A stretch of 56,492 nucleotides of DNA from positions 1-56,492 of the forward strand of contig CAIYTH010000025.1 in assembly GCA_903929135.1 (NCBI GenBank), in the 5' to 3' direction. Source of the DNA: an uncultured Chlorobiales bacterium. Lineage in GTDB: Bacteria > Bacteroidota > Chlorobiia > Chlorobiales > Chlorobiaceae. The translations under genes were made by a program, and so were the position numbers. Below are positions 3,640 through 22,770 of the stretch, one piece after another. The first letter of the stretch is position 1. The number at the start of each line of letters is the position of its first letter. Below the pieces are notes generated by a model. The model saw only the letters and a list, made by a program, of their open reading frames with translations, was not told the origin of the DNA and did no database searches.

Positions 3640-4221
3640 ATGAAAGTAGTCGCCATCAACGGCAGTCCTCGCTCGGACGGAAACACTCATATCCTTATAA
3701 GTTCTGTACTTGAGGAATTGCAGAAAGCCGGAATCGAAACGGATATCATCCAGCTTGGCGGTGAGGTTGTTCGCGGATGTTCCGCCTGCAACAGGTGCTG
3801 GAAAAATCAAAACCGTCGCTGCGACCTGGAAAACGACTGCGTCAGTTTCTGCATCGAGCAGATGGCGAATGCCGACGGAATAATCATAGGTTCACCAACC
3901 TATTTCGCGAATGTCACGACCGAAATAAAAGCTTTGATCGACCGCGCAGGATCGGTCGGGTGTGCCAACAGGAACATGTTCAGGCGTAAAGTGGGCGCTG
4001 CTGTGGTGTCGGCAAGCAGGGAGGGCGCAATACATGTCTTCAACTCGATTACTGATTTCTTTTTGATCGAAGAGATGATCGTTCCCGGGTCCGGATTCTG
4101 GAACACAGGCATCGGCTTCGACAAGGGTGGGGTGCTTGAAGACGAAGAGGGTATGAATACACTACGGACTCTCGGACAGAACATGGCATGGCTGCTGCAG
4201 GCAACCCGACGGAGCATGTAG
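3640..4221 (+). CDS. Flavodoxin-like NAD(P)H-dependent FMN reductase
   Basis: A 193-residue protein beginning MKVVAINGSPRSDGNTHIL, the phosphate-binding loop of the multimeric flavodoxin/WrbA/iron-sulfur-flavoprotein superfamily. GSPTYFANVT around residue 90 is the second FMN-binding loop. A cysteine-rich stretch (GCSACNRCW followed by RRCDLENDC) occupies residues about 47-68, as in iron-sulfur-flavoprotein-like members; whether it binds a cluster cannot be told. ATG 3640 is preferred because AAAGAGA lies 6-8 bases upstream; an in-frame ATG at 3625 would add five residues. Likely a cytosolic flavin-dependent electron-transfer protein; partner unknown. Confidence 0.85.
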   Translation: MKVVAINGSPRSDGNTHILISSVLEELQKAGIETDIIQLGGEVVRGCSACNRCWKNQNRRCDLENDCVSFCIEQMANADGIIIGSPTYFANVTTEIKALIDRAGSVGCANRNMFRRKVGAAVVSASREGAIHVFNSITDFFLIEEMIVPGSGFWNTGIGFDKGGVLEDEEGMNTLRTLGQNMAWLLQATRRSM

Positions 4222-4415
4222 CGCAAGCTCCGAATCTAAACGTCCTGCTCATCCTGCAGCATCCTGAGCCGGCCCGATATCTTATGCTATTTTTTTACTA
4301 TACTGTAACATACGGTGCCCGTAGCTGTTGTCCTGAAGTACCAAACATTCATCTCAGAAACATAGGCCAACACCACGATGGCCGTGGATAACCTGTTCAT
4401 ATTTTGAGGCGATCC

Positions 4416-6788
4416 ATGGCTAAAGGTCAAGTAAACCGGATGATCTCCATGCCCAAACACGCACAACCCTCAATAGCAGAAGCTGACCCGTTTGACAACA
4501 GCTACCTTGCATTATTTGAACTGATACCTGAGCCCATACTGTTCATTGACCCTTCCGGCACCATCCTTGATGCCAATCCTGCATGCAAGGAAAGGTTCCA
4601 GCGGTTCGGCATGGAGTGCATCGGCGTCAATCTCTTTGAGATGACGATGCCCGATCCTTTACAGCAACTGAAAGTGGCCCAACGGAAGACAATTGCCCAG
4701 GAGGTTTTTCGTACAGGAAAAAGCACATCCTTTGAGGATATGCAGAACGGAAGCATCTGGAAGCACTCCCTCTACCCTATTATTTCTCCTGAAGGCGAGG
4801 TCGTCAAGTTGTGCATCATGGATCGGGATATTACACCGCAAAGAAATGTCGAGCTGCAGTACCGCGATATCCAGTCCCAATTCGATTTCACGCTTCAGAA
4901 TTATCAGCTGGGAGTGTGGGGCATTGATTTAAGGGACAATTCGATTCACCACACACTGGAACATGACCGTATTTTCGGATACGACACCCTTGTCCCGCAA
5001 TGGAACTTTGAGATTTTTGTCAGTCACGTCATTCCGGAAGATCGTCAGGATGTTGAGCAGAAATACTGGGCACTTATCGACAATCCTGACGGATGGAGCC
5101 ATGAATTCCGAATTCGCAGAGTTGATGGCTCGGTTCGGTGGATTCATGATATCGGCGGATGTGAAATGGATGAAAACGGCAAAGCGATTCGCGTTCTTGG
5201 AGTGACCAGAGATATCACCGAGTTGAAAGAAGCCGAGCTGAAACTGAGGGACTTCGATCAAAAATGGGATTTCATTTCTCGCAATGGCCATATCGGGCTA
5301 TGGTCCCTTGATCTCGATACTTTGACCCTGAGCAGAACTGAAGCCCATGCCCGTATTTATGGCGAGGATTTTTCAAGCCAACCAACCTGGAATCTTCAAG
5401 AAACCTCAGAGCACATCTTCATCGATGACCGGCAAAGGGTTTCATCAGTTGTGCAGAAAGCGCTTTCGGACCATCAGGATTACCAGTTCGAAGCTCGTAT
5501 TTATGGAGCCGACAGCACCATTCGCTGGATTCATGTAATCGGGGTATTCAAGTTTGACGAGCAAGGAACAGCAAGATATATACTCGGGACAACGCAGGAT
5601 ATTACGGCTCTTAAAGAGCTCGAGATAGAGCAGCAGATACTTGAAACAAAACTCCAGCAATCACAGAAAATGGAACTGCTGGGACAATTGGCGGGCGGTA
5701 TCGCCCATGACTTCAACAACTCGCTTACCGCTATTCTGGGAAACATTGAAATAGCCCAGGAGATCATTGACGAGAACAATCCGGCTTACGAAAACCTCGT
5801 CTCAATCAGTCATTCCGCGATGCACTCGGCGGAGACGGTAAAGCAGTTGCTTGCGTTTGCGAGAAAAAAAGAGCTGACGCCCCAATCAGTCCTGATCGAT
5901 GACGAACTGAAGAAGATGCGGATATTACTCGGCAATCTGATCAGGGAAAACGTCGAGTTCCGATGGAATCTCAATAGCCACCCGCATCTCGTCAGCCTCG
6001 ATCCGTCATGTTTCGTGCAGATAATCACGAACCTTTGCGTCAACGCTCGTGACGCCATTTCAGACAGGGGGATCATTACCATTGAAACCGATATTGTAAA
6101 TGCGAGCGACTACGACTGGATGACGGCCAACAACGATGCCCCTGTTGTTGATTTATTAAGAATATCGATTTCAGACAGTGGATGCGGCATCTCCCAGAAA
6201 GCACTTCCACATATTTTTGAGCCTTTTTTCACCACCAAGGAGATCGGCAAAGGGACAGGATTGGGCTTATCAACGGTGTATGGGCTCGTCAATCAGAACG
6301 GCGGAGTCGTCACGTGCCAGAGCGAAATCGATAAGGGCACGACGTTCAGCATCCTGTTTCCCCTCTCGCAGATAACCGATACGAAGCAGGAATCAACAAC
6401 GGTCGAGCTGCCTGAGATCACAAGCAATGGGTTGGTTCTTGTCGTTGAAGATCAGCCTCAGATTTTATCGATCATCACGCTCATTCTTCAAAAACAGGGG
6501 CTCAAAGTGCTGTCAGCAGAAAATGCCGAAGAGGCTATAAGGATTTTCGAAGCGCATGAGAATGATATCGGCATTGTGATCTCCGACATCATGATGGCAG
6601 GAATGAACGGCATCCAGATGAGCCATGAAATAATGAAAATGAATCCGTGCACGAAATTCATCTTCATGTCCGGCTATACCGCAGATGCACTTGGAAGTAA
6701 CGCAAGGCTCGACGCAGACACAAAATTCATCTCAAAGCCTTTCGGTGTCTCAGACTTTTTACGGATAGTAAAGTCAGTGCTCAATTAA
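4416..6788 (+). CDS. Soluble hybrid sensor histidine kinase (PAS-PAS-PAS-HisKA-HATPase-REC)
   Basis: About 790 residues with no membrane segment, so probably cytosolic. Three PAS domains lie at roughly 25-140, 150-270 and 280-400; the last two resemble each other (SVRWIHDIGG and TIRWIHVIGV) and look like a tandem duplication. The H-box GGIAHDFNNSLTAIL places the phospho-histidine at about residue 431. N, G1 and G2 boxes follow (NLCVNARDAI, SDSGCGIS, GKGTGLGLSTVYG). A C-terminal receiver domain (about 670-790) has its acidic pair in VVEDQ, the acceptor Asp at about residue 724 in VISDIMM and the lysine in FISKPFG. ATG 4416 has GAGG 6 bases upstream; a TTG at 4404 would add four residues. No output regulator is adjacent, so it is an orphan. 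Confidence 0.92.
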   Translation: MAKGQVNRMISMPKHAQPSIAEADPFDNSYLALFELIPEPILFIDPSGTILDANPACKERFQRFGMECIGVNLFEMTMPDPLQQLKVAQRKTIAQEVFRTGKSTSFEDMQNGSIWKHSLYPIISPEGEVVKLCIMDRDITPQRNVELQYRDIQSQFDFTLQNYQLGVWGIDLRDNSIHHTLEHDRIFGYDTLVPQWNFEIFVSHVIPEDRQDVEQKYWALIDNPDGWSHEFRIRRVDGSVRWIHDIGGCEMDENGKAIRVLGVTRDITELKEAELKLRDFDQKWDFISRNGHIGLWSLDLDTLTLSRTEAHARIYGEDFSSQPTWNLQETSEHIFIDDRQRVSSVVQKALSDHQDYQFEARIYGADSTIRWIHVIGVFKFDEQGTARYILGTTQDITALKELEIEQQILETKLQQSQKMELLGQLAGGIAHDFNNSLTAILGNIEIAQEIIDENNPAYENLVSISHSAMHSAETVKQLLAFARKKELTPQSVLIDDELKKMRILLGNLIRENVEFRWNLNSHPHLVSLDPSCFVQIITNLCVNARDAISDRGIITIETDIVNASDYDWMTANNDAPVVDLLRISISDSGCGISQKALPHIFEPFFTTKEIGKGTGLGLSTVYGLVNQNGGVVTCQSEIDKGTTFSILFPLSQITDTKQESTTVELPEITSNGLVLVVEDQPQILSIITLILQKQGLKVLSAENAEEAIRIFEAHENDIGIVISDIMMAGMNGIQMSHEIMKMNPCTKFIFMSGYTADALGSNARLDADTKFISKPFGVSDFLRIVKSVLN

Positions 6789-6871
6789 GCGCCGGCGTAC
6801 CTCGAGAGAGGCTTGTTACTATCAGTTATGATCTAGTCATCCTGTCTTATCTAACACCCGCATTCAAACGA

Positions 6872-6900
6872 CAGCAAGCGTGTCCGGAACACGCTTGCTG
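6872..6900. terminator. Perfect 12-bp hairpin between convergent genes
   Basis: CAGCAAGCGTGT (6872-6883) and ACACGCTTGCTG (6889-6900) form a perfect 12-bp stem with a 5-base loop. It sits between the ends of the kinase and glmS. Neither side has a strong U-tract, but its position suits a bidirectional transcription barrier. Confidence 0.6.
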
Positions 6901-6941
6901 CAGGTTGAAACGAAGCCGAAGCTCATGTAGTCATCGCGCCA

Positions 6942-8786
<1,845 letters not shown>

Positions 8787-15356: not shown

Positions 15357-16430
15357 ATGTTCGACAAGCTTCAGTCCATCAAGGATAAATACCAGACCCT
15401 CGAGCAGCAGCTCTCAGACCCGGAAGTGGTCTCCGACCAGTCGCGATTCAGAAAGCTCAACAAGGAGTACAGCAGCCTGAAAGAGATCGTCCAGGCCTAC
15501 GACGCATGGGCGAGCGCCAAAACGCAGCTCGCAGATGCCCATCAGATGATGAAGAACGAGCATGACCACGACATGCGGGAACTGGCGCAGGCCGAGGTCA
15601 ACGAGCTGCAGGAGCAGATGCCGAAGCTTGAACAGGAGCTCAAGGTGCTGCTGCTGCCCAAAGAGGAGGCCGATTCCCGCAACGCCATCCTCGAGATCAG
15701 GGCAGGCACCGGCGGCGATGAAGCCGCGCTCTTCGCGACCGATCTCATGCGCATGTACCAGCGCTACGCCGAACGGCAGGGATGGTCGTGCCAGCTCCTG
15801 GACGCCAGCGAAGGCTCCGTGCCCGGCAGCCTCAAGGAGGTCGTGCTCGAGATCACCGGCCACGACGTGTACGGCATCCTGAAGTTCGAAAGCGGCGTGC
15901 ACCGCGTCCAGCGGGTACCCGATACGGAAACCCAGGGCCGCATCCACACCTCCGCCGCCACGGTGGCCGTCCTCCCCGAAGCCGAAGAGGTCGACGTCGA
16001 GATCCGTAAGGACGACCTGCGTGTCGACACCTTCCGCAGCGGCGGAAAAGGCGGCCAGAACGTCAACAAGGTAGAAACGGCCGTCAGGATCACACACATG
16101 CCCAGCGGCATCGTGGTCGCCTGCCAGGAGGAGCGTTCGCAGCTCCAGAACCGCGAACGGGCCATGAAGATGCTCCGCTCGAAGCTCTACGACATCCAGA
16201 TCGCCGAACAGCAGAAGCATCGCGCCGACATGCGGCGCTCGATGGTCACCACCGGCGACCGGAGCGCCAAGATCAGGACCTACAACTTCCCTCAGTCGAG
16301 GGTCACGGACCACCGCATCGGCTTCACGAGCCACGCTCTTCCCCAGATCATGCAGGGCGAACTCGACGGCGTCATCGAAGCCCTCCGCCTGCACGACCAG
16401 GCCGAACGGCTCCAGGCCGAAACCGCCTGA
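15357..16430 (+). CDS. prfA: Peptide chain release factor 1
   Basis: A 357-residue RF1. The GGQ loop is in [17 protein letters not shown] and the stop-codon-reading P-x-T tripeptide is PDT in [14 protein letters not shown], the RF1 rather than the RF2 signature (SPF). It releases completed peptides at UAA and UAG. It is the last gene of the dxr-rseP-prfA run and starts 22 bp after rseP. Confidence 0.97.
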
Positions 16431-16851
16431 CCCACCCGCATCAAACCACAAAGCACCCCTTCGGAAGAGGGGGTTTCGAGTTGTCATGCTGGGCATTGCA
16501 AAGCGGATGGAAGGCTCCATCAGGCCCAAGACTCAGCGCTTATCACAGAAATAATAATGGCTTGTGAAAGTTCGGACGGATATTTCCGAGACAGGTTCTT
16601 TGTTCATGACTGACCCCTTCATTTTTTTTAAGTGGAATTTTACCAACCGTTAATACCCGCTTAAGAAACGAAGGCTACTATGTAAGAAGTTGGTTGAGCA
16701 TTTGTCGCATGACTGACTGATTCGGTACAGGTAATCGGGATGCGCCTGCTTCAGTACCACGGAACGGCATCGGATATGTTCTCCGGTGCCCGTTCGCCTG
16801 ACCTGCGTTCCTGTGCCTGTCAAATGAACAACGCTTAACATGGAGGCATCT
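16431..16851 (+). other. Intergenic region with weak hairpin and a multi-repeat promoter
   Basis: About 420 bases without a gene. A small hairpin (16455-16476, CACCCC/GGGGGT around a CTTCGGAAG core) may end the prfA transcript. The second half contains the four-repeat operator and candidate -10 box listed separately, leaving an untranslated leader of about 160 bases before the DUF1566 gene. Confidence 0.6.
16627..16681 (+). promoter_or_regulatory. Four 11-bp-phased TTAAG-type half-sites plus -10 box
   Basis: Half-sites TTTAAG (16627), TTTTAC (16638), GTTAAT (16649) and CTTAAG (16660) recur at exactly 11-bp steps with 5-base spacers. Ten bases after the last one lies TACTAT (16676-16681), a -10-like hexamer with no separate -35 box. 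This is the arrangement of OmpR/PhoB/PmrA-type activator promoters. The same layout recurs at 21923-21977. Confidence 0.6.
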
Positions 16852-17358
16852 ATGAAAACCATCATGAATCCTATTCTTTCGAAAGCAGGCAAAGGCCTTG
16901 CAAAAATCGTACTGTTCTGTTCGGTGCTCGCTCCGGTTTCACTGCCCGCAGCAAATGCCACAAGCCAATCCAGACTTGATATCGGCGACAACTTCGGCGG
17001 CGGAAAGGTGGCCTACATCTTCAAGCAAGGCGATCATGGTTATGTTGCAGGGCAGACCCACGGCCTGATCGCTGCAAAAGGGGATCTGAGTTACAATGAT
17101 ACCTGGAAAAATGCGATGAAGGCCTGCAGGGAATATCGGGCAGGCGGATTCAGCGACTGGCGCCTGCCGAAGAAGGATGAACTGCCGAGACTTTACAGCA
17201 ACAGGTTCGAAATCGGCGGATTCAAGGAACACCACTACTATTGGTCAGGCACCGAAAGCGACCTGAATGACGTCTGGGACCTGAGCTTCGTTACCGGCAA
17301 ACGTAATCTCGCCTACAAACTGGATCACGAATATGCCAGGCCGGTGAGGACATTCTGA
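16852..17358 (+). CDS. Exported DUF1566 (Lcl C-terminal-like) protein
   Basis: A 168-residue protein with a signal peptide of about 35 residues (hydrophobic core IVLFCSVLAPVSLPA, probable cleavage near ANA). The mature part carries DUF1566 hallmarks: GKVAYIF early on, ACREYRAGGFSDWRLPKKDEL in the middle, YYWSGTESD and ARPVRTF at the end, with the regularly placed Trp and Gly of the family. Members are secreted or surface proteins related to lectin-like/FGE folds; no function is known. ATG 16852 is chosen because GGAGG sits 5 bases before it; an ATG at 16840 lies upstream. It is a single-gene unit with its own operator-like promoter and a strong terminator. Confidence 0.85.
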   Translation: MKTIMNPILSKAGKGLAKIVLFCSVLAPVSLPAANATSQSRLDIGDNFGGGKVAYIFKQGDHGYVAGQTHGLIAAKGDLSYNDTWKNAMKACREYRAGGFSDWRLPKKDELPRLYSNRFEIGGFKEHHYYWSGTESDLNDVWDLSFVTGKRNLAYKLDHEYARPVRTF

Positions 17359-17425
17359 GCGAAGATGAACATGACCCCAATGGTATGCCAACTGCAAGCG
17401 ATGAGATAATCAAACAGAAACGATG

Positions 17426-17470
17426 ACAACAGATAACCCCGGTGATGAGCCGGGGTTATCTGTTGTTTAT
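17426..17470 (+). terminator. Strong 17-bp stem terminator
   Basis: A perfect 17-bp stem (17426-17442 with 17450-17466, ending TGTTGT) around the 7-base loop TGATGAG, followed by a short T-rich tail. It ends the DUF1566 gene. Confidence 0.85.
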
Positions 17471-17608
17471 GCCGAACAGGAGCGGAAGGGCATTTTCCGC
17501 CAGGATCTGTCCGGAAATCACGAATCCTGCCGGTTTGCCTTGGCAATTGCAATTCTCTGTTATTACCTTCTATACTGTACCCTCCCAATCACTTATCGGT
17601 AACACCCA

Positions 17609-18199
17609 ATGAAAATATCATTGAGACCCGCGATGGTCGCGGCCTGCTTGAGCTTCGCCTCTCCGAGCGCCTTTGGCGCCGGAAGAGTTACCGGGACGAT
17701 TGAAGGAAGCATGGACAAATATACGAAAGGCGCCGTCGTCTATCTGAAAGGTGTCCCGGGCAGGATCAGCCCGAAAGAGGCGGTCGTCGAACAAAAAAAC
17801 CTGCAGTTTATCCCTCATGTCATCGCCGTACCGGTGGGATCGACGGTTTCGTTCATCAACCGCGACAAAGTGAACCACGACATCTATTCGGCAGATTCGA
17901 CCAAGGCGCTGGATATCAACACCAGCAAACCCGGAATATACCAGAAAGAGGTATTCGACAAACCCGGAGTGGTGAACCTGCTCTGCACCATTCACGCTGA
18001 AATGTCCGGGTACATCGTCGTCATCAACAGCAACCACTACGCAGTAACCGGGGCGGACGGCAGGTTCTCCATCAGGAACGTGCCCCCCGGCAGGTATGAG
18101 GTGGTGGTCTGGAGCGAAAAGCTGAAAGCGCTGGAGGAAACGGTCGTTACCGTCAAGAACGGGCAGAACTCGAGGGTGGCGATCACGATCGGGAAATAA
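17609..18199 (+). CDS. Exported cupredoxin-like (plastocyanin-type) protein
   Basis: A 196-residue protein with a signal peptide (MKISLRPAMVAACLSFASPS, cleavage near AFGA) and a copper-binding cupredoxin fold. The likely ligands are His90 (VNHDIY), Cys126, His129 and Met132 in LLCTIHAEM, the C-x2-H-x2-M arrangement of type-1 copper. A short carboxypeptidase-regulatory-like (CnaB-type) domain follows, with GRFSIRNVPPGRYEVVVWS. Such proteins are often labelled methylamine-utilisation-like and act as periplasmic electron carriers or copper proteins. A second copy 4 kb downstream has lost half these ligands. It precedes the DUF1997-like gene by over 300 bases. Confidence 0.88.
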   Translation: MKISLRPAMVAACLSFASPSAFGAGRVTGTIEGSMDKYTKGAVVYLKGVPGRISPKEAVVEQKNLQFIPHVIAVPVGSTVSFINRDKVNHDIYSADSTKALDINTSKPGIYQKEVFDKPGVVNLLCTIHAEMSGYIVVINSNHYAVTGADGRFSIRNVPPGRYEVVVWSEKLKALEETVVTVKNGQNSRVAITIGK

Positions 18200-18532
18200 G
18201 GTACGGCAGCAAATGGCTCACACATCAGTGATGAAGTCACATGAAACCGATCTTTTCAAGACCCGCCATCACTGCACCGTCGATGATCGACCGGCGGCTT
18301 GAACCCCCGAAATGCGTATATTTCCCCCTGAACAGCAATCATCGAAGACGCATCGAAACGGGTTTTCAGCAGGAATTGCAAACGTTCTGCAGCGTCTCGA
18401 CCTGAAAACCATTACGTGAGGCAAGCTGAGGAATGAGTATATTTTGCTCACCTTGTCACCAGACATTCAGAGAATCTGACATCACAGATGAAGGCGGCCG
18501 ATGCCGCCCGACGATCGGGAGAGCACGTTATC
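18200..18532. other. Intergenic region
   Basis: About 330 bases between the cupredoxin gene and the DUF1997-like gene. I see no gene, long hairpin or clear operator in it. Confidence 0.5.
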
Positions 18533-19144
18533 ATGGAAATGGAAGCCACAGGCAAGAGCCACGGACAATGGATATTTCACGGTGATTTCGACCGGACGGT
18601 CAACTACCTTTCCGACCAGAAGAAAATCCTCGGGTTCAACCCCTTCTGCCACAGCGTCGAACCGCTCGGCCCCGACGACACCTACCGGTGGCTATTCAGG
18701 GTGACGGACCCGCAGAACAACCCGTTCGACGTGATCTTCAACGTGAAGCAGGAAAACGAGCTGCTGCTAGAGATTCCCGTGGATATCGAAGGCATCGACG
18801 TCGAAGAGCTGACCGAGGAGATGATCAGCGAATACACGGTCGGCAAGAAAGTCACGTGGCGCCACTTCCCGCTTCCCGACTCGCTGGAAAACCCCGAGAA
18901 GTACCTTTTTGAAGGCAAAGCAACTGCCGACATGCTCTTCCTTCCGCTGGCCGGAGAGAAGACCAGGGTCGATTTCGACCTGAAGATCGACGTGAAGTTC
19001 ATACTGTACCCGGCGTTCCGCATCATCCCCGAGCAGATCATCCGGGTCATGACCAACGCCGGCATGTCGCTTATCATGCAGACCGCGACCAACAAGATGT
19101 TCCAGAGCATCTCGAACGACTTCGGCACCGTCCGCCAGATGTGA
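18533..19144 (+). CDS. DUF1997-like protein
   Basis: About 204 residues, no signal peptide or membrane span. The sequence is rich in beta-strand patterns ([49 protein letters not shown]) and resembles the DUF1997/SRPBCC-like family of cyanobacteria and Chlorobi, where members associate with photosynthetic organisms; function unknown. ATG 18533 (MEMEATGKS) is preferred, though a frame from 18488 would add 15 residues. GGGAG lies 11 bases upstream, slightly far. The channel gene follows after 34 bases on the same strand. Confidence 0.7.
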
Positions 19145-19178
19145 ACGCCGCCCCGAAAACCTTCACGATCACTGCCCA

Positions 19179-20204
19179 TTGATAAAGGACAACCAACAGT
19201 TTTCCGCACTTCGCCGCTTTTCGATCTCCATCGTCAGCGTGGCGCTGCTGATCCTTTCCGGCACGATCGGCTACATGTACATCGAGCGAATGTCGCTGCT
19301 CAACGCCGTCTACATGACGGTCATCACGGTGGCAACGGTCGGGTTCAGCGAGGTCCACCCGCTGAGCGACGCCGGAAAGATATTCACCATCACGCTGATC
19401 ATCGGCGGCACCGGCCTGTTTTTCTTCACCCTGACCAATGTCGCGGTCTTCCTCCTCTCGGGCGAATGGCGCGAACACTGGGAACAACAACGCAACGAAC
19501 GCATGCTGCGCAAGCTGAAAGACCATTTCATCGTCTGCGGCTACGGCCGTCTCGGCGGCAACGTTGCCGAGGAACTCAAGGCGAAAGGAATCCCCTTCGT
19601 CGTCGTCGACAACACCATCGAACCGGTGCTCCGCGCCCGTGACAACGGCGACCTCGCCATCAAGGGCAATGCCGCCGACGAAAGCGTGCTCGTCGACGCC
19701 GGCCTCGACCGCGCCAAGGGGCTGATCGCCGCCGCCGGCAACGATGCTGAAAACGTCTTCATCGTCCTGACCGCCAGGAACCTGAAACCGGACCTGCACA
19801 TCGTCGCCAAGGCCGACTGTGAAGAGTCCGAAAGCAAGCTTCTGCGAGCCGGCGCCGAAAAGGTCGTGCTGCTCTACCGCTCCGCCGGCAAACGCATGGC
19901 CAACCTGCTGATCGAACCCGAACTCGAAGAGTACCTCGACGAACTCAGCGACGCGAGCAACCTCAACCTCAGGATCGCCCAGTTCCTCATCAGCGATACT
20001 TCGACGCTCGTCGGCAAGTCGTTCCAGGAGGTCGACCTCTACAACAACCACCGGATCAACGTCGTCGGGTACAAGCTTCCCGGCGGTGAACTGCACACGA
20101 CTCCGCGTCCTGCCGAAATCATCCAGAAGAACGGCACCATCATCGCCATCGGAAAGGGCGGCGATCTCGAAATACTGAACCATCTCGCACAAGGAGGAAA
20201 CTGA
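19179..20204 (+). CDS. Two-helix potassium channel with RCK (TrkA-N/TrkA-C) domains
   Basis: A 341-residue channel subunit. Two membrane helices (about 15-35 and 65-95) flank a pore loop, MTVITVATVGFSEVHPLS, whose filter is TVGFSE where TVGYGD or TVGYGE is usual. The cytosolic part begins with a Rossmann TrkA-N domain (FIVCGYGRLGGNVAEEL, about residue 115) and ends with a TrkA-C domain (about 255-335). These channels form tetramers gated by nucleotides or Ca2+. The start is TTG 19179, as no in-frame ATG precedes the first helix. The nitroreductase gene follows after 2 bases. Confidence 0.9.
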   Translation: MIKDNQQFSALRRFSISIVSVALLILSGTIGYMYIERMSLLNAVYMTVITVATVGFSEVHPLSDAGKIFTITLIIGGTGLFFFTLTNVAVFLLSGEWREHWEQQRNERMLRKLKDHFIVCGYGRLGGNVAEELKAKGIPFVVVDNTIEPVLRARDNGDLAIKGNAADESVLVDAGLDRAKGLIAAAGNDAENVFIVLTARNLKPDLHIVAKADCEESESKLLRAGAEKVVLLYRSAGKRMANLLIEPELEEYLDELSDASNLNLRIAQFLISDTSTLVGKSFQEVDLYNNHRINVVGYKLPGGELHTTPRPAEIIQKNGTIIAIGKGGDLEILNHLAQGGN

Positions 20205-20206
20205 CC

Positions 20207-20722
20207 ATGAACCTGCACGACCTCATCGCCTCGCGGAACAGCGTCCGCGCATTTGACCCTTCAAGGCCTGTTCCATCGGACGTGATGACCCGAATCCTCG
20301 ACTCCGGCCGGCTCGCACCCTCCGCCAAGAACCTCCAGCCGTGGAAGTTCCTCGTCATCAGCTCGGATGAGATGCGCAGCAGGGTCTACGACTGCTACCA
20401 GCGCGACTGGCTCCGGCAGGCCCCGCACATCCTGGTCGTCAAGGGCGACCGCAACTCCGCCTGGGTTCGCGCTTCCGACGGATGGAACTCGCTCGAAACC
20501 GACCTGGCCATCGTCATGGACCACCTCATCCTCGCAGCCCATGCCGAAGGCCTCGGCACCTGCTGGATCTCGGCCTTCGACGCCGCCCTCCTGGGCAGGA
20601 TTCTGGAACTCTCCCCCGACGAGGAGATCTTCGCCATCACGCCGCTCGGCTTCACCGCCGATGGCTACGTTCCCGTACCCAAGACCCGGAAACCCCTCGA
20701 AGAGGTTGTCGAGTACCTGTAA
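20207..20722 (+). CDS. Nitroreductase family protein
   Basis: A 171-residue FMN-dependent oxidoreductase. SRNSVRAFDPSRPVP near the N-terminus and RLAPSAKNLQPWKFLVI give the FMN-contacting part; LAAHAEGLGTCWISAFD and the C-terminal PLGFTADGY-x-P motif complete the fold. Homodimeric flavoproteins of this type reduce nitro compounds, quinones or flavins; the substrate cannot be told from sequence. The gene starts 2 bases after the potassium-channel gene and is followed by the hydrolase gene after about 25 bases, so the three are probably one transcript. Confidence 0.92.
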   Translation: MNLHDLIASRNSVRAFDPSRPVPSDVMTRILDSGRLAPSAKNLQPWKFLVISSDEMRSRVYDCYQRDWLRQAPHILVVKGDRNSAWVRASDGWNSLETDLAIVMDHLILAAHAEGLGTCWISAFDAALLGRILELSPDEEIFAITPLGFTADGYVPVPKTRKPLEEVVEYL

Positions 20723-20747
20723 GAACCAAATACGGCGAGTACGCCAC

Positions 20748-21779
20748 ATGCATCGCATCGCCAAAACCCTTCTCCTCTCGACCCTGCTCGCATCGGCATC
20801 GACGCCTTGCATGGCGCTCAGGCCAACGCCCATCAAGGTATCCGGACAGATCGTCGCCGACGACCGGCTGCCGCGACCCAGCCTCAGCCTCGGCAACGTC
20901 ACCATCCTCACCGACGTCACCTACGGGTCGATTCCCGGCTACCGGCCGATGCTGCTCGACCTCTACCTGCCGGCCGGCAAGGGCCCGCACCCGCTGGTCG
21001 TCTACGTGCACGGAGGAAGCTGGACCAGCGGATCGAAACGCGTGACCGGCCACTTCAGCGACTTCCCCGGGCTCCTCGCCACGCTCGCCGGCAAAGGCTT
21101 CGCCGTCGCTTCGGTCGATTACCGGCTGAGCAGCGAAGCGAAATTCCCCGCCGCCATCCAGGACGTCAAGGCCGCCATCCGCTTTCTGCGCGCCAACTCG
21201 GGGAAATTCAGCATCGACCGCAACCGCGTTGCGCTGTGGGGTGCATCAGCCGGCGCACATCTCGCCGCCATGGCTGCCGTTACGGGCGACGACCCGGCAT
21301 TCGAAACCGCCGACAGGAGCAATGCCGACCAGTCCGACCGCATCCAGGCTTTCGTCGGGTGGTACGGCCCCTACGACATGGCGGCCATGTTCAGGCAGGC
21401 CATGTCGTCACCAGCGCCCTCCGCCACGACCATGACTCCCGAAGCCGCCGCCGAGGCGTCCGGCCCGCTCAACTTCTTCGGCTGCACCACGGAAGGCTGC
21501 CCGCCCGGTGTGCTGGAAAAGGGAAGCCCCACCACCTGGATCGACAGGGACGACCCGCCAGCGCTGCTCATCCACGGCACCGCCGACGCCACCGTCTCCC
21601 CGGACCAATCCATCGCATACTACAACCGCCTCAAGGCAGCCGGTGTCAAAGCCGACCTCCTGCTGATCGACCGTGCCGACCACAGCTGGAGCGGCCCCGA
21701 TCGGAAATCCACCGTTGCCGCTTCCCGCAAGGCCGTCGTGGCGACGTTCGAGTGGCTGGACAAAATGCTCCTGAAATGA
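20748..21779 (+). CDS. Exported alpha/beta hydrolase (esterase/BD-FAE-like)
   Basis: A 343-residue hydrolase with a signal peptide (MHRIAKTLLLSTLLASASTP). The oxyanion region is YVHGGSWTSGSK, the nucleophile Ser is in the elbow WGASAGAHLAA, the acid Asp in HGTADATVSP and the His in RADHSWSG, a complete triad. The fold and HGG motif match the BD-FAE/hormone-sensitive-lipase-like esterases; the substrate is unknown. The open frame extends back into the nitroreductase gene, but ATG 20748, with the signal peptide directly after it, is the sensible start. It is likely exported to the periplasm. Confidence 0.9.
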   Translation: MHRIAKTLLLSTLLASASTPCMALRPTPIKVSGQIVADDRLPRPSLSLGNVTILTDVTYGSIPGYRPMLLDLYLPAGKGPHPLVVYVHGGSWTSGSKRVTGHFSDFPGLLATLAGKGFAVASVDYRLSSEAKFPAAIQDVKAAIRFLRANSGKFSIDRNRVALWGASAGAHLAAMAAVTGDDPAFETADRSNADQSDRIQAFVGWYGPYDMAAMFRQAMSSPAPSATTMTPEAAAEASGPLNFFGCTTEGCPPGVLEKGSPTTWIDRDDPPALLIHGTADATVSPDQSIAYYNRLKAAGVKADLLLIDRADHSWSGPDRKSTVAASRKAVVATFEWLDKMLLK

Positions 21780-22167
21780 CTCCCGCCTGACACCTGCCGA
21801 CAGATACCAGCTCGACCTTTCACGCCGGTAATGCCCCGAAAAAGCATTGCCTCGCCCCCCTCTTCGCGAATCACCGTTTGCCGGAACAACCGTGATGCCC
21901 TGCCGCAGGAATAAACTTAAAATTTAAGCGGATTTTGAGGTGCGCTTAAGGCAGGCTTAAGGTTCGACCGATATTTTATTCATGTAGATCGGAATTATCG
22001 ACAGGATTTCAACCCTTGCCGTAATCACTGTTTTTCAGTCGACCCCTTCCGTCCTCGCTGTCTATCCTGCATGATCATACGTATGCCTCTTGATGATCTC
22101 TGGCAGGTCAATAACGAATAACCACGGGGCACACCCCCGTAACCCACGTAAAAAAAGGAGAGTGGCT
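21780..22167 (+). other. Intergenic region with multi-repeat promoter and leader
   Basis: About 390 bases without a gene. It includes the four-repeat operator (21923-21977), a candidate leader of roughly 180 bases, and a small hairpin ACGGGG/CCCCGT at 22124-22140 shortly before the ribosome site of the next gene. Confidence 0.6.
21923..21977 (+). promoter_or_regulatory. Four 11-bp-phased TTAAG-type half-sites plus -10 box
   Basis: TTTAAG (21923), TTTGAG (21934), CTTAAG (21945) and CTTAAG (21956) lie at exact 11-bp steps with 5-base spacers. Ten bases after the last is TATTTT (21972-21977), at the same offset as in the array at 16627-16681. CTTAAG-N5-CTTAAG equals the box known for PmrA-type regulators. 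Confidence 0.65.
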
Positions 22168-22770
22168 ATGTTTAAAAAGACGAGTATGTTCATCAGGGCT
22201 GCATTACTGCTGGCCGGTTTCGGGTTCATGACGTCGGAAGCCTATTGCCTCGGGACCATCAGCGGATCAGTCATTTCTGACCTGCAGAGAAACAAGGGCG
22301 ACGTCGTCGTCTACCTGAAAGGTGAGGTCGGGCCGGTCCATCACAAGACTGAAGTCCTGGAGCAGCATCATCTGACGTTCATTCCGAAAGTCATGGCCAT
22401 ACCGGTCGGCTCCAATGTCATGTTCACCAACCACGACAAAATCGATTCCGATGTGTTTTCGGTAAGCGAAGACAACAAATTCAACCTGGAGTCCACCAAG
22501 CCGGGCACACAGGGGAAAATCACCTTCAACAAACCCGGCGCGGTCAATGTGCTCAGCAAGATGCACCCCGAGATGTCGGCCTGGATCGTGGTCACCGACA
22601 ACCAATACGCATCGGTGTCAAACAGGACAGGCTCGTTCACGATCCCGAACGTTCCTGCCGGCACCTACCAGCTCGCTTTCTGGAGCGAAAAGCTCAAATC
22701 GCAGGGAAGCACCACGGTGAAGGTCGAGGATGGAAAGATCGCCAAGGTTTCCCTGAAGCTTGAAGATTGA
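22168..22770 (+). CDS. Exported cupredoxin-like paralogue lacking two copper ligands
   Basis: A 200-residue protein with a signal peptide (hydrophobic core MFIRAALLLAGFGFM, cleavage near AYC-LG). It aligns along its length with the protein at 17609-18199, including the C-terminal GSFTIPNVPAGTYQLAFWS domain. At the ligand positions it has Ser94 (KIDSDVF) for His and Ser130 for Cys in VLSKMHPEM, keeping only His133 and Met136. It is therefore unlikely to bind type-1 copper. ATG 22168 has AAGGAG 6 bases upstream; longer upstream starts are not credible. It is a single-gene unit between its own operator-like promoter and a strong terminator. Confidence 0.85.
   Translation: MFKKTSMFIRAALLLAGFGFMTSEAYCLGTISGSVISDLQRNKGDVVVYLKGEVGPVHHKTEVLEQHHLTFIPKVMAIPVGSNVMFTNHDKIDSDVFSVSEDNKFNLESTKPGTQGKITFNKPGAVNVLSKMHPEMSAWIVVTDNQYASVSNRTGSFTIPNVPAGTYQLAFWSEKLKSQGSTTVKVEDGKIAKVSLKLED

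Follow-up and report, generated by a model that had tools for sequence, protein, structure and literature searches.

Response regulators of the OmpR/PhoB family generally recognise their half-sites head to tail. Two described operator types come closest to the one considered here (published systems are cited throughout from excerpts of the respective papers). The BqsR operator of P. aeruginosa reads TTAAG-N6-TTAAG and occurs in clusters of up to five pentamers; the PA14_04180 promoter carries four, the last over the -35 region; output depends on pentamers 3 and 4 and is raised by 1 and 2 (PMC4682146). The PmrA box reads CTTAAG-N5-XTTAAT, its half-sites being recognised head to tail (PMC3973317). 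Here, we analysed contig CAIYTH010000025.1 (C25; the window, 56,492 nucleotides) of an uncultured Chlorobiales bacterium of the family Chlorobiaceae (GCA_903929135.1; 2.14 Mb, 62 contigs, 91.67% complete), in which two promoters carry four-fold TTAAG-type repeats. Judging from sequence comparison, it is highly probable that these sites, at 16627 and 21923, are operators of a single OmpR/PhoB-type response regulator (RR) encoded on contig C22, which would govern a conserved envelope regulon, with Fe(II) or a related signal as the most likely stimulus.

Two phased operators in the window

The two promoters and their products comprise the following features.

16627..16665, plus strand: operator 1, half-sites TTTAAG (16627), TTTTAC (16638), GTTAAT (16649) and CTTAAG (16660), located by sequence scan
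16676..16681, plus strand: -10 box of promoter 1, TACTAT, at +16 from the start of the last half-site
16682..16851, plus strand: leader of promoter 1, presumed start near 16688, with sequence common to the leader of the DUF1566 paralogue on C22
16852..17358, plus strand: DUF1566/Lcl_C-domain protein, putatively secreted, product of promoter 1 (Pfam Lcl_C; secretion read from the N-terminus)
21923..21961, plus strand: operator 2, half-sites TTTAAG (21923), TTTGAG (21934), CTTAAG (21945) and CTTAAG (21956), located by sequence scan
21972..21977, plus strand: -10 box of promoter 2, TATTTT, at +16 from the start of the last half-site
21978..22167, plus strand: leader of promoter 2, presumed start near 21984
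22168..22770, plus strand: cupredoxin-like protein with a C-terminal carboxypeptidase-regulatory-like domain, Ser replacing the Cys and the first His of the type-1 copper site (alignment with the 17609 paralogue)

Both arrays repeat at exactly 11 bp, with the half-sites and positions that an initial annotation of the contig had described, and in both promoters a hexamer starting with TA begins 16 bases past the start of the last half-site (16676 and 21972). Agreement with the half-site consensus YTTAAK extends to 21/24 positions in operator 1 and 23/24 in operator 2. The direct repeat appears to replace the -35 region at a fixed distance from the -10 box, as in the OmpR/PhoB family. The leaders, announced as 160-180 bases long, come to about 164 and 184 bases from the presumed transcript starts to the ATG codons at 16852 and 22168, and no known RNA was matched in Rfam at the gathering threshold across 16400-22400. 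Ordinary sigma-70 promoters were considered for both sites, and a consensus scan of the plus strand there found none.

Genome-wide occurrence and the regulator locus

The initial annotation had proposed to scan genomes for a pair of consensus half-sites with the fixed -10 offset. For the pair alone, the strict two-half-site scan gave 2 forward and 1 reverse matches against 1 + 1 in the control, which is near chance, and the test was therefore shifted to four half-sites with a -10 box. With four half-sites and at most three mismatches, the whole genome yielded 8 rows at 5 distinct places (C25:16627, C25:21923, C22:2099, C22:3010 and C22:5859) and the backward pattern 1 match. Precisely the same 5 places were returned by three half-sites combined with TANNNT at +16 (at most three mismatches), with no control match. 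Their -10 boxes read, in this order, TACTAT, TATTTT, TATTAT, TAACTT (at +17) and TATCTT. When the -10 was sought at +17 behind three half-sites, C22:3021 fitted the register with 1 mismatch; the remaining rows had 3 mismatches, the controls gave 1 + 1, and two of these rows, on C32 and C53, are likely due to chance. The signal is thus carried by the four-fold repeat together with the -10 box, not by the half-site pair.

Three of the five operators lie within 3.8 kb on contig C22, around an RR gene with a Trans_reg_C domain.

C22:2099: operator, followed by a DUF1566 paralogue
C22:3010: operator, followed by a DUF4405 protein (3141), the RR (3694-4377) and a histidine kinase (4377-5849)
C22:5859: operator, followed by a membrane protein with no Pfam match (5953) and a multihaem cytochrome c (6541-7716)

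The RR consists of a receiver and a Trans_reg_C domain and its partner kinase of HAMP, HisKA and HATPase_c domains, all above the Pfam gathering scores, and the DUF4405-RR-kinase operon is preceded by an operator of its own. The membrane protein at 5953 is presumably cytochrome b-like, as judged by eye. The promoters at C22:2099 and C25:16627 have nearly identical operators and share leader sequence; they are paralogous copies, operator 1 being a duplicate, so that the two sites do not count as independent. Immediately before the C22 regulon locus, at 573-1970 of L014, lie genes for an ECF-like factor of the sigma-70 family and for a membrane protein with no Pfam match.

Operator and regulator across the family

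In a first set of 61 family genomes, in which the RR was scored as present at an identity of at least 60%, the operator occurred in all 55 RR-bearing genomes (378 matches against 39 in the control). Among the six RR-less genomes (G007, G008, G014, G034, G040 and G048) it was found in G008 only, with 1 match against a control total of 1 for the six. The association gives a Fisher p of 1e-6, ignoring phylogeny, and the RR-less genomes belong to both genera. A second search, by E up to 1e-70 over 98 genomes of the class, found the RR in 79: 79/86 within the family and 0/12 in other families of the order. The second set (37 further genomes) contained 24 RR-bearing family members, of which 22 had a match (176 matches against 19), and the 12 genomes of other families, which have no RR, gave 23 matches against 24 in the reversed control. 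The excess predicted for related genomes is therefore present, at about tenfold over the control where the RR occurs, and disappears in the other families. Several genomes of genus g2 contain second RR copies of 60-65% identity (65% in G050, the genome of locus L162).

Four Trans_reg_C genes were found in the window genome (C22, C47, C41 and C54), so that one of the other OmpR-type regulators could in principle use the operators, the C22 RR being merely one more target. We regard this as improbable. Of the four genes, it is the one on C22 that sits among three operators, and the six RR-less genomes of the first set have 1 operator match in all, although five of them keep other RR hits of 38-40% identity (G048 has none). 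These data favour the C22-type RR as the regulator that reads the operators.

A fixed -10 box and conserved DUF1566 promoters

The distance to the -10 box was assessed on 123 sites from 31 genomes, namely 118 places of the first set and the five of the window genome. Conservation of the half-sites among them is by construction; the -10 box had no part in the first-set search. TANNNT stands at +16 in 33 sites and at +17 in 78, together 111/123, compared with 0 to 12 sites at any other offset from 6 to 59 and a background of 2.6% for a pair of neighbouring offsets. The claim of a fixed offset stands for +16/+17, with the correction that the family prefers +17 to the +16 originally given. At locus L131 (G005 C117, 13805, 13978 and 14149), three near-identical operators without a -10 box follow each other at about 172 bases, ahead of a seemingly repeat-rich protein.

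Orthologous DUF1566 promoters keep the operator, as had been anticipated: it precedes all 14 homologues of at least 54% identity (12/12 by upstream scan, C22:2099 and G020 C74).

These results also decide on the possibility that AT-rich intergenic DNA resembles phased TTAAG repeats by chance, to which we assign next to no weight. The near-chance yield of the strict two-half-site motif in the window genome and the equality of matches and controls in the outgroup would fit it. They are outweighed by the roughly tenfold excess in RR-bearing genomes, by a -10 box whose position lay outside the search criteria and by the operators upstream of every close DUF1566 homologue. For the operators taken together, chance is refuted; individual sites may still be fortuitous, especially where the -10 box is missing.

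Genes behind the operators

Targets were taken as the first open frame of at least 80 codons behind a site, which was available for 116/123 sites, and named from Pfam scans of representatives.

DUF4405-like cluster: 22 sites
Cytochrome b-like membrane protein cluster: 18 sites; no Pfam match, the next gene, where read, being a multihaem cytochrome
TlpA/Redoxin-thioredoxin cluster: 13 sites
DUF1566 cluster: 10 sites
Zinc-ribbon cluster: 6 sites
TPR cluster: 6 sites
Cupredoxin-like cluster: 5 sites
DUF3570 cluster: 3 sites
Cytochrome c cluster: 3 sites
BOF cluster: 3 sites
One cluster that is probably an out-of-frame reading: 3 sites
Two further clusters of 2 sites each and 20 single frames, some of them surely not genes

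Further targets by position are ApbE, DsbD-N, cation-efflux, P-type ATPase and pyridine-nucleotide oxidoreductase genes, the last of which we take to encode a thioredoxin reductase. The target set resembles an envelope electron-transfer programme. A regulon of exported proteins, as initially proposed, is matched by the envelope-type targets; cation transporters and thioredoxin-type and zinc-ribbon proteins belong to it by position as well. TlpA-DUF3570-ApbE is among the operator-linked gene sets. DUF3570 of Chlorobium luteolum is a proven substrate of ApbE flavinylation, and clusters with a thioredoxin-like protein, DUF4266 and DsbD (PMC8238504). Some DUF4405-like and multihaem proteins have Asp/His-rich tails that could bind metal. 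For genes of unknown function, namely those for DUF1566, DUF4405, DUF3570 and cupredoxin-like proteins, the regulon would provide a regulator and testable promoters.

Cupredoxin-like promoters follow the pattern in part. Out of 54 listed matches, the 29 that have loci, one fragment being set aside, were examined; the operator lies upstream of 8 (p ≤ 0.01), seven of them with a full -10 box, and the expectation of a generally conserved promoter holds for these only. Three more matches are operator-linked (G037 C11, G037 C18 and G050 C9), and one relative of the 22168 protein was found in the named collection (L013, in a Chlorobiaceae metagenome-assembled genome), in a search that may pass over the source genome; on this ground the organism is taken for a green sulfur bacterium. 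The loss of copper ligands described for the 22168 protein is real, with Ser in place of Cys and of one His; all four type-1 ligands are kept in the operator-linked homologues L159 and L186. By eye, a TTAACAATTGTTAA-like palindrome stands upstream of operator-less cupredoxin-like genes (L198, L199, L201, L202, L204 and L013), as if another regulator were at work there.

The window contains a second cupredoxin gene (17609-18199), with all four type-1 copper ligands and no operator. A 17-pair hairpin at 17426-17466, possibly a terminator, separates this gene from the DUF1566 gene, and its own promoter may be the sigma-70-like match at 17547-17576. Its membership in the operon of promoter 1 was rejected, as the scan found no operator there and the gene sits behind the hairpin.

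Further targets resemble Cyc2, whose signature is AXPXFAR[Q/K][T/Y] plus CXXCH (PMC8406198). Signatures of this type occur in two proteins that come first behind operators (L143:400-1719 and L162:1769-3097), with deviations (Ser for Ala in the former; no PXL part in the latter), and neither protein matched a Pfam or NCBIfam model. The L143 protein has 17 homologues in the 61 genomes, all in genus g2 and without the L162 protein among them; the same search found no homologue in the window genome. Eleven of the 17 carry the signature if Ala or Ser is allowed, and Tyr stands for Phe in six. For 9/17 of these genes, the upstream 1.3 kb contain an operator that exceeds 100 shuffles, in seven cases with a full -10 box and sometimes with another gene in between. 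At L162 (G050 C56), an RR-kinase pair sits behind the gene with the Cyc2-like signature, which has its own operator.

The signal

BqsS binds Fe2+ via E48 of its R44-E45-x-x-E48-N49 motif (PMC12666569). Numbered from the conserved MSLRNR start, E45xxE48 is present in 27/31 distinct N-termini of the Chlorobiaceae kinases, the window genome included (kinases with this start were counted), and in 29/29 of an overlapping aligned set. Going by this motif match at the BqsS positions, we rate Fe(II) as the likeliest signal, and our best guess is that the kinase uses the motif to sense Fe(II) outside the cytoplasm, or else a related metal or redox signal. Many genus-g2 kinases have an Asp/Asn-rich periplasmic loop past the ExxE helix that could bind metal.

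A different signal for the same two-component system, be it another metal (Cu, Zn or Mn), thiol or oxidative stress, or the envelope redox state, is a serious competitor that we place just short of evenly balanced. The best NCBIfam models are the heavy-metal families CzcR/SilR/CopR for the RR and CzcS/SilS/CopS for the kinase; membership in CzcRS/SilRS/CopRS was rejected, as both score below the cut-offs (218.4 against 279.2 and 251.3 against 292.55). Positional targets include cation-efflux, P-type ATPase and Redoxin-family proteins and thioredoxin with the presumed reductase, and some of the cupredoxin-like targets have a complete type-1 copper site. ColRS, moreover, responds to several metals (PMC4074579). 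Fe(II) is favoured by the operator sequence, the four-pentamer layout and the position of the kinase motif, which fit BqsRS best, and by the Cyc2-like genes among the targets.

We tentatively suggest, as a possibility that is somewhat less likely than not, that in green sulfur bacteria a BqsRS-like Fe(II) sensor controls extracellular electron transfer and with it, in some of the Cyc2-bearing species, the Cyc2 iron oxidase. If true, this would give Chlorobiaceae a first candidate for the regulation of photoferrotrophic iron oxidation, recognisable from DNA alone by its four-pentamer operator; with Fe(II) as signal, one could test directly how photoferrotrophs turn on iron oxidation.

Proposed regulation and its weight

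From the computed operators, -10 boxes, RR co-occurrence and target classes, we infer how binding, activation and signalling might proceed. The histidine kinase (C22, 4377-5849), as partner of the RR, would sense extracytoplasmic Fe(II), or the related metal or redox state, at its ExxE motif as BqsS does. The phosphorylated RR (C22, 3694-4377) would bind the TTAAG half-sites every 11 bp as head-to-tail dimers. The last half-site, 10-11 bases upstream of the -10 box, would stand in for the -35 region and help to recruit RNA polymerase. Under such control would come the autoregulated DUF4405-RR-kinase operon, the membrane protein with the multihaem cytochrome c, TlpA-DUF3570-ApbE, DUF1566 and cupredoxin-like proteins and, in some species, Cyc2-like proteins. 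The initial assignment to an OmpR/PhoB-family two-component regulon is borne out by the motif excess that goes with the RR, the -10 offset, the DUF1566 promoters and the RR-kinase operon with its own operator.

Several observations weigh against this picture. RR-bearing G061 and G066 have no operator match at three mismatches; in G061 a four-mismatch operator with a -10 box does sit upstream of the RR, and in G066 the RR lies about 350 bases from a contig end, too near to tell. Conversely, no RR was detected in G080 (85% complete), which has 3 operator matches. The -10 box is missing from 12/123 sites, among them the lone match in G008, which lacks the RR, and a G005 repeat with three copies. 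Among the cupredoxin-like homologues examined, 8/29 are operator-linked, one of them (G020) lacking the full -10 box, and the L013 gene has no operator upstream; 8/17 Cyc2-like genes have none by the same 1.3-kb shuffle test. E45xxE48 is absent from the kinases of L113, L119/L122, L130 and L147. The C22 RR falls below the NCBIfam cut-off for all 25 models shown, and other RRs of the window genome could bind similar sequence.

Comparison with described systems

QseBC of E. coli has an RR 38% identical to that of C22, and a BOF-family gene, ygiW, as neighbour, as the BOF gene is in three family genomes. Set beside the bqsPQRS order of P. aeruginosa, these three, including that of L119, have behind one operator a gene of BOF type, one of DUF4405-like type, the RR and the kinase; the order in the window genome is DUF4405-RR-HK (histidine kinase). 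Assignment of the C22 RR to QseB was rejected (149 bits against an NCBIfam cut-off of 345), and we know of no multihaem cytochrome regulon of QseBC. PhoBR membership was likewise discarded, the PhoB equivalog model giving 203.9 against 296.2.

PmrA/BasR of Enterobacteria shares the YTTAAK half-sites, the 5-base spacer and the OmpR/PhoB domain order with the C22 system, whose RR is 36% identical to E. coli BasR. The boxes described in the excerpts have two half-sites, whereas the Chlorobiaceae operators have four. PmrA reads bases through Asn188 and Asn196 (PMC4660055); these align with Ser and Phe in the C22 RR, the K. pneumoniae numbering being transferred via the helix sequence and the E. 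coli BasR alignment. As PmrA itself, the C22 RR was rejected at 154.4 bits against a cut-off of 330.

BqsRS/CarRS is the closest in layout, with the same pentamer, the same 11-bp period, the same arrangement of four pentamers with the last at -35, and the same kinase ExxE at 45/48. It differs in belonging to another phylum and in its targets, those of the Chlorobiaceae system comprising cytochromes, Cyc2-like proteins and flavinylation. The CarR receiver domain (8gc6; only the receiver was compared) matches the C22 RR at E 1.3e-21, below many other receivers. Leaving membership aside, the Chlorobiaceae system would work like BqsRS.

The initial description of the system as undescribed applies to its regulon alone; BqsR already has this operator sequence and its layout of four repeats, and PmrA has the half-sites. 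Our searches of open-licence literature, covering titles and abstract starts, showed no description of this TTAAG regulon and, for green sulfur bacteria, no regulator acting on genes for electron donors or for envelope redox functions. As far as these searches show, regulator lineage, phylum and regulon are new; operators of this kind have been described before. The Chlorobiaceae operators would extend the BqsR/PmrA operator type beyond Pseudomonadota.

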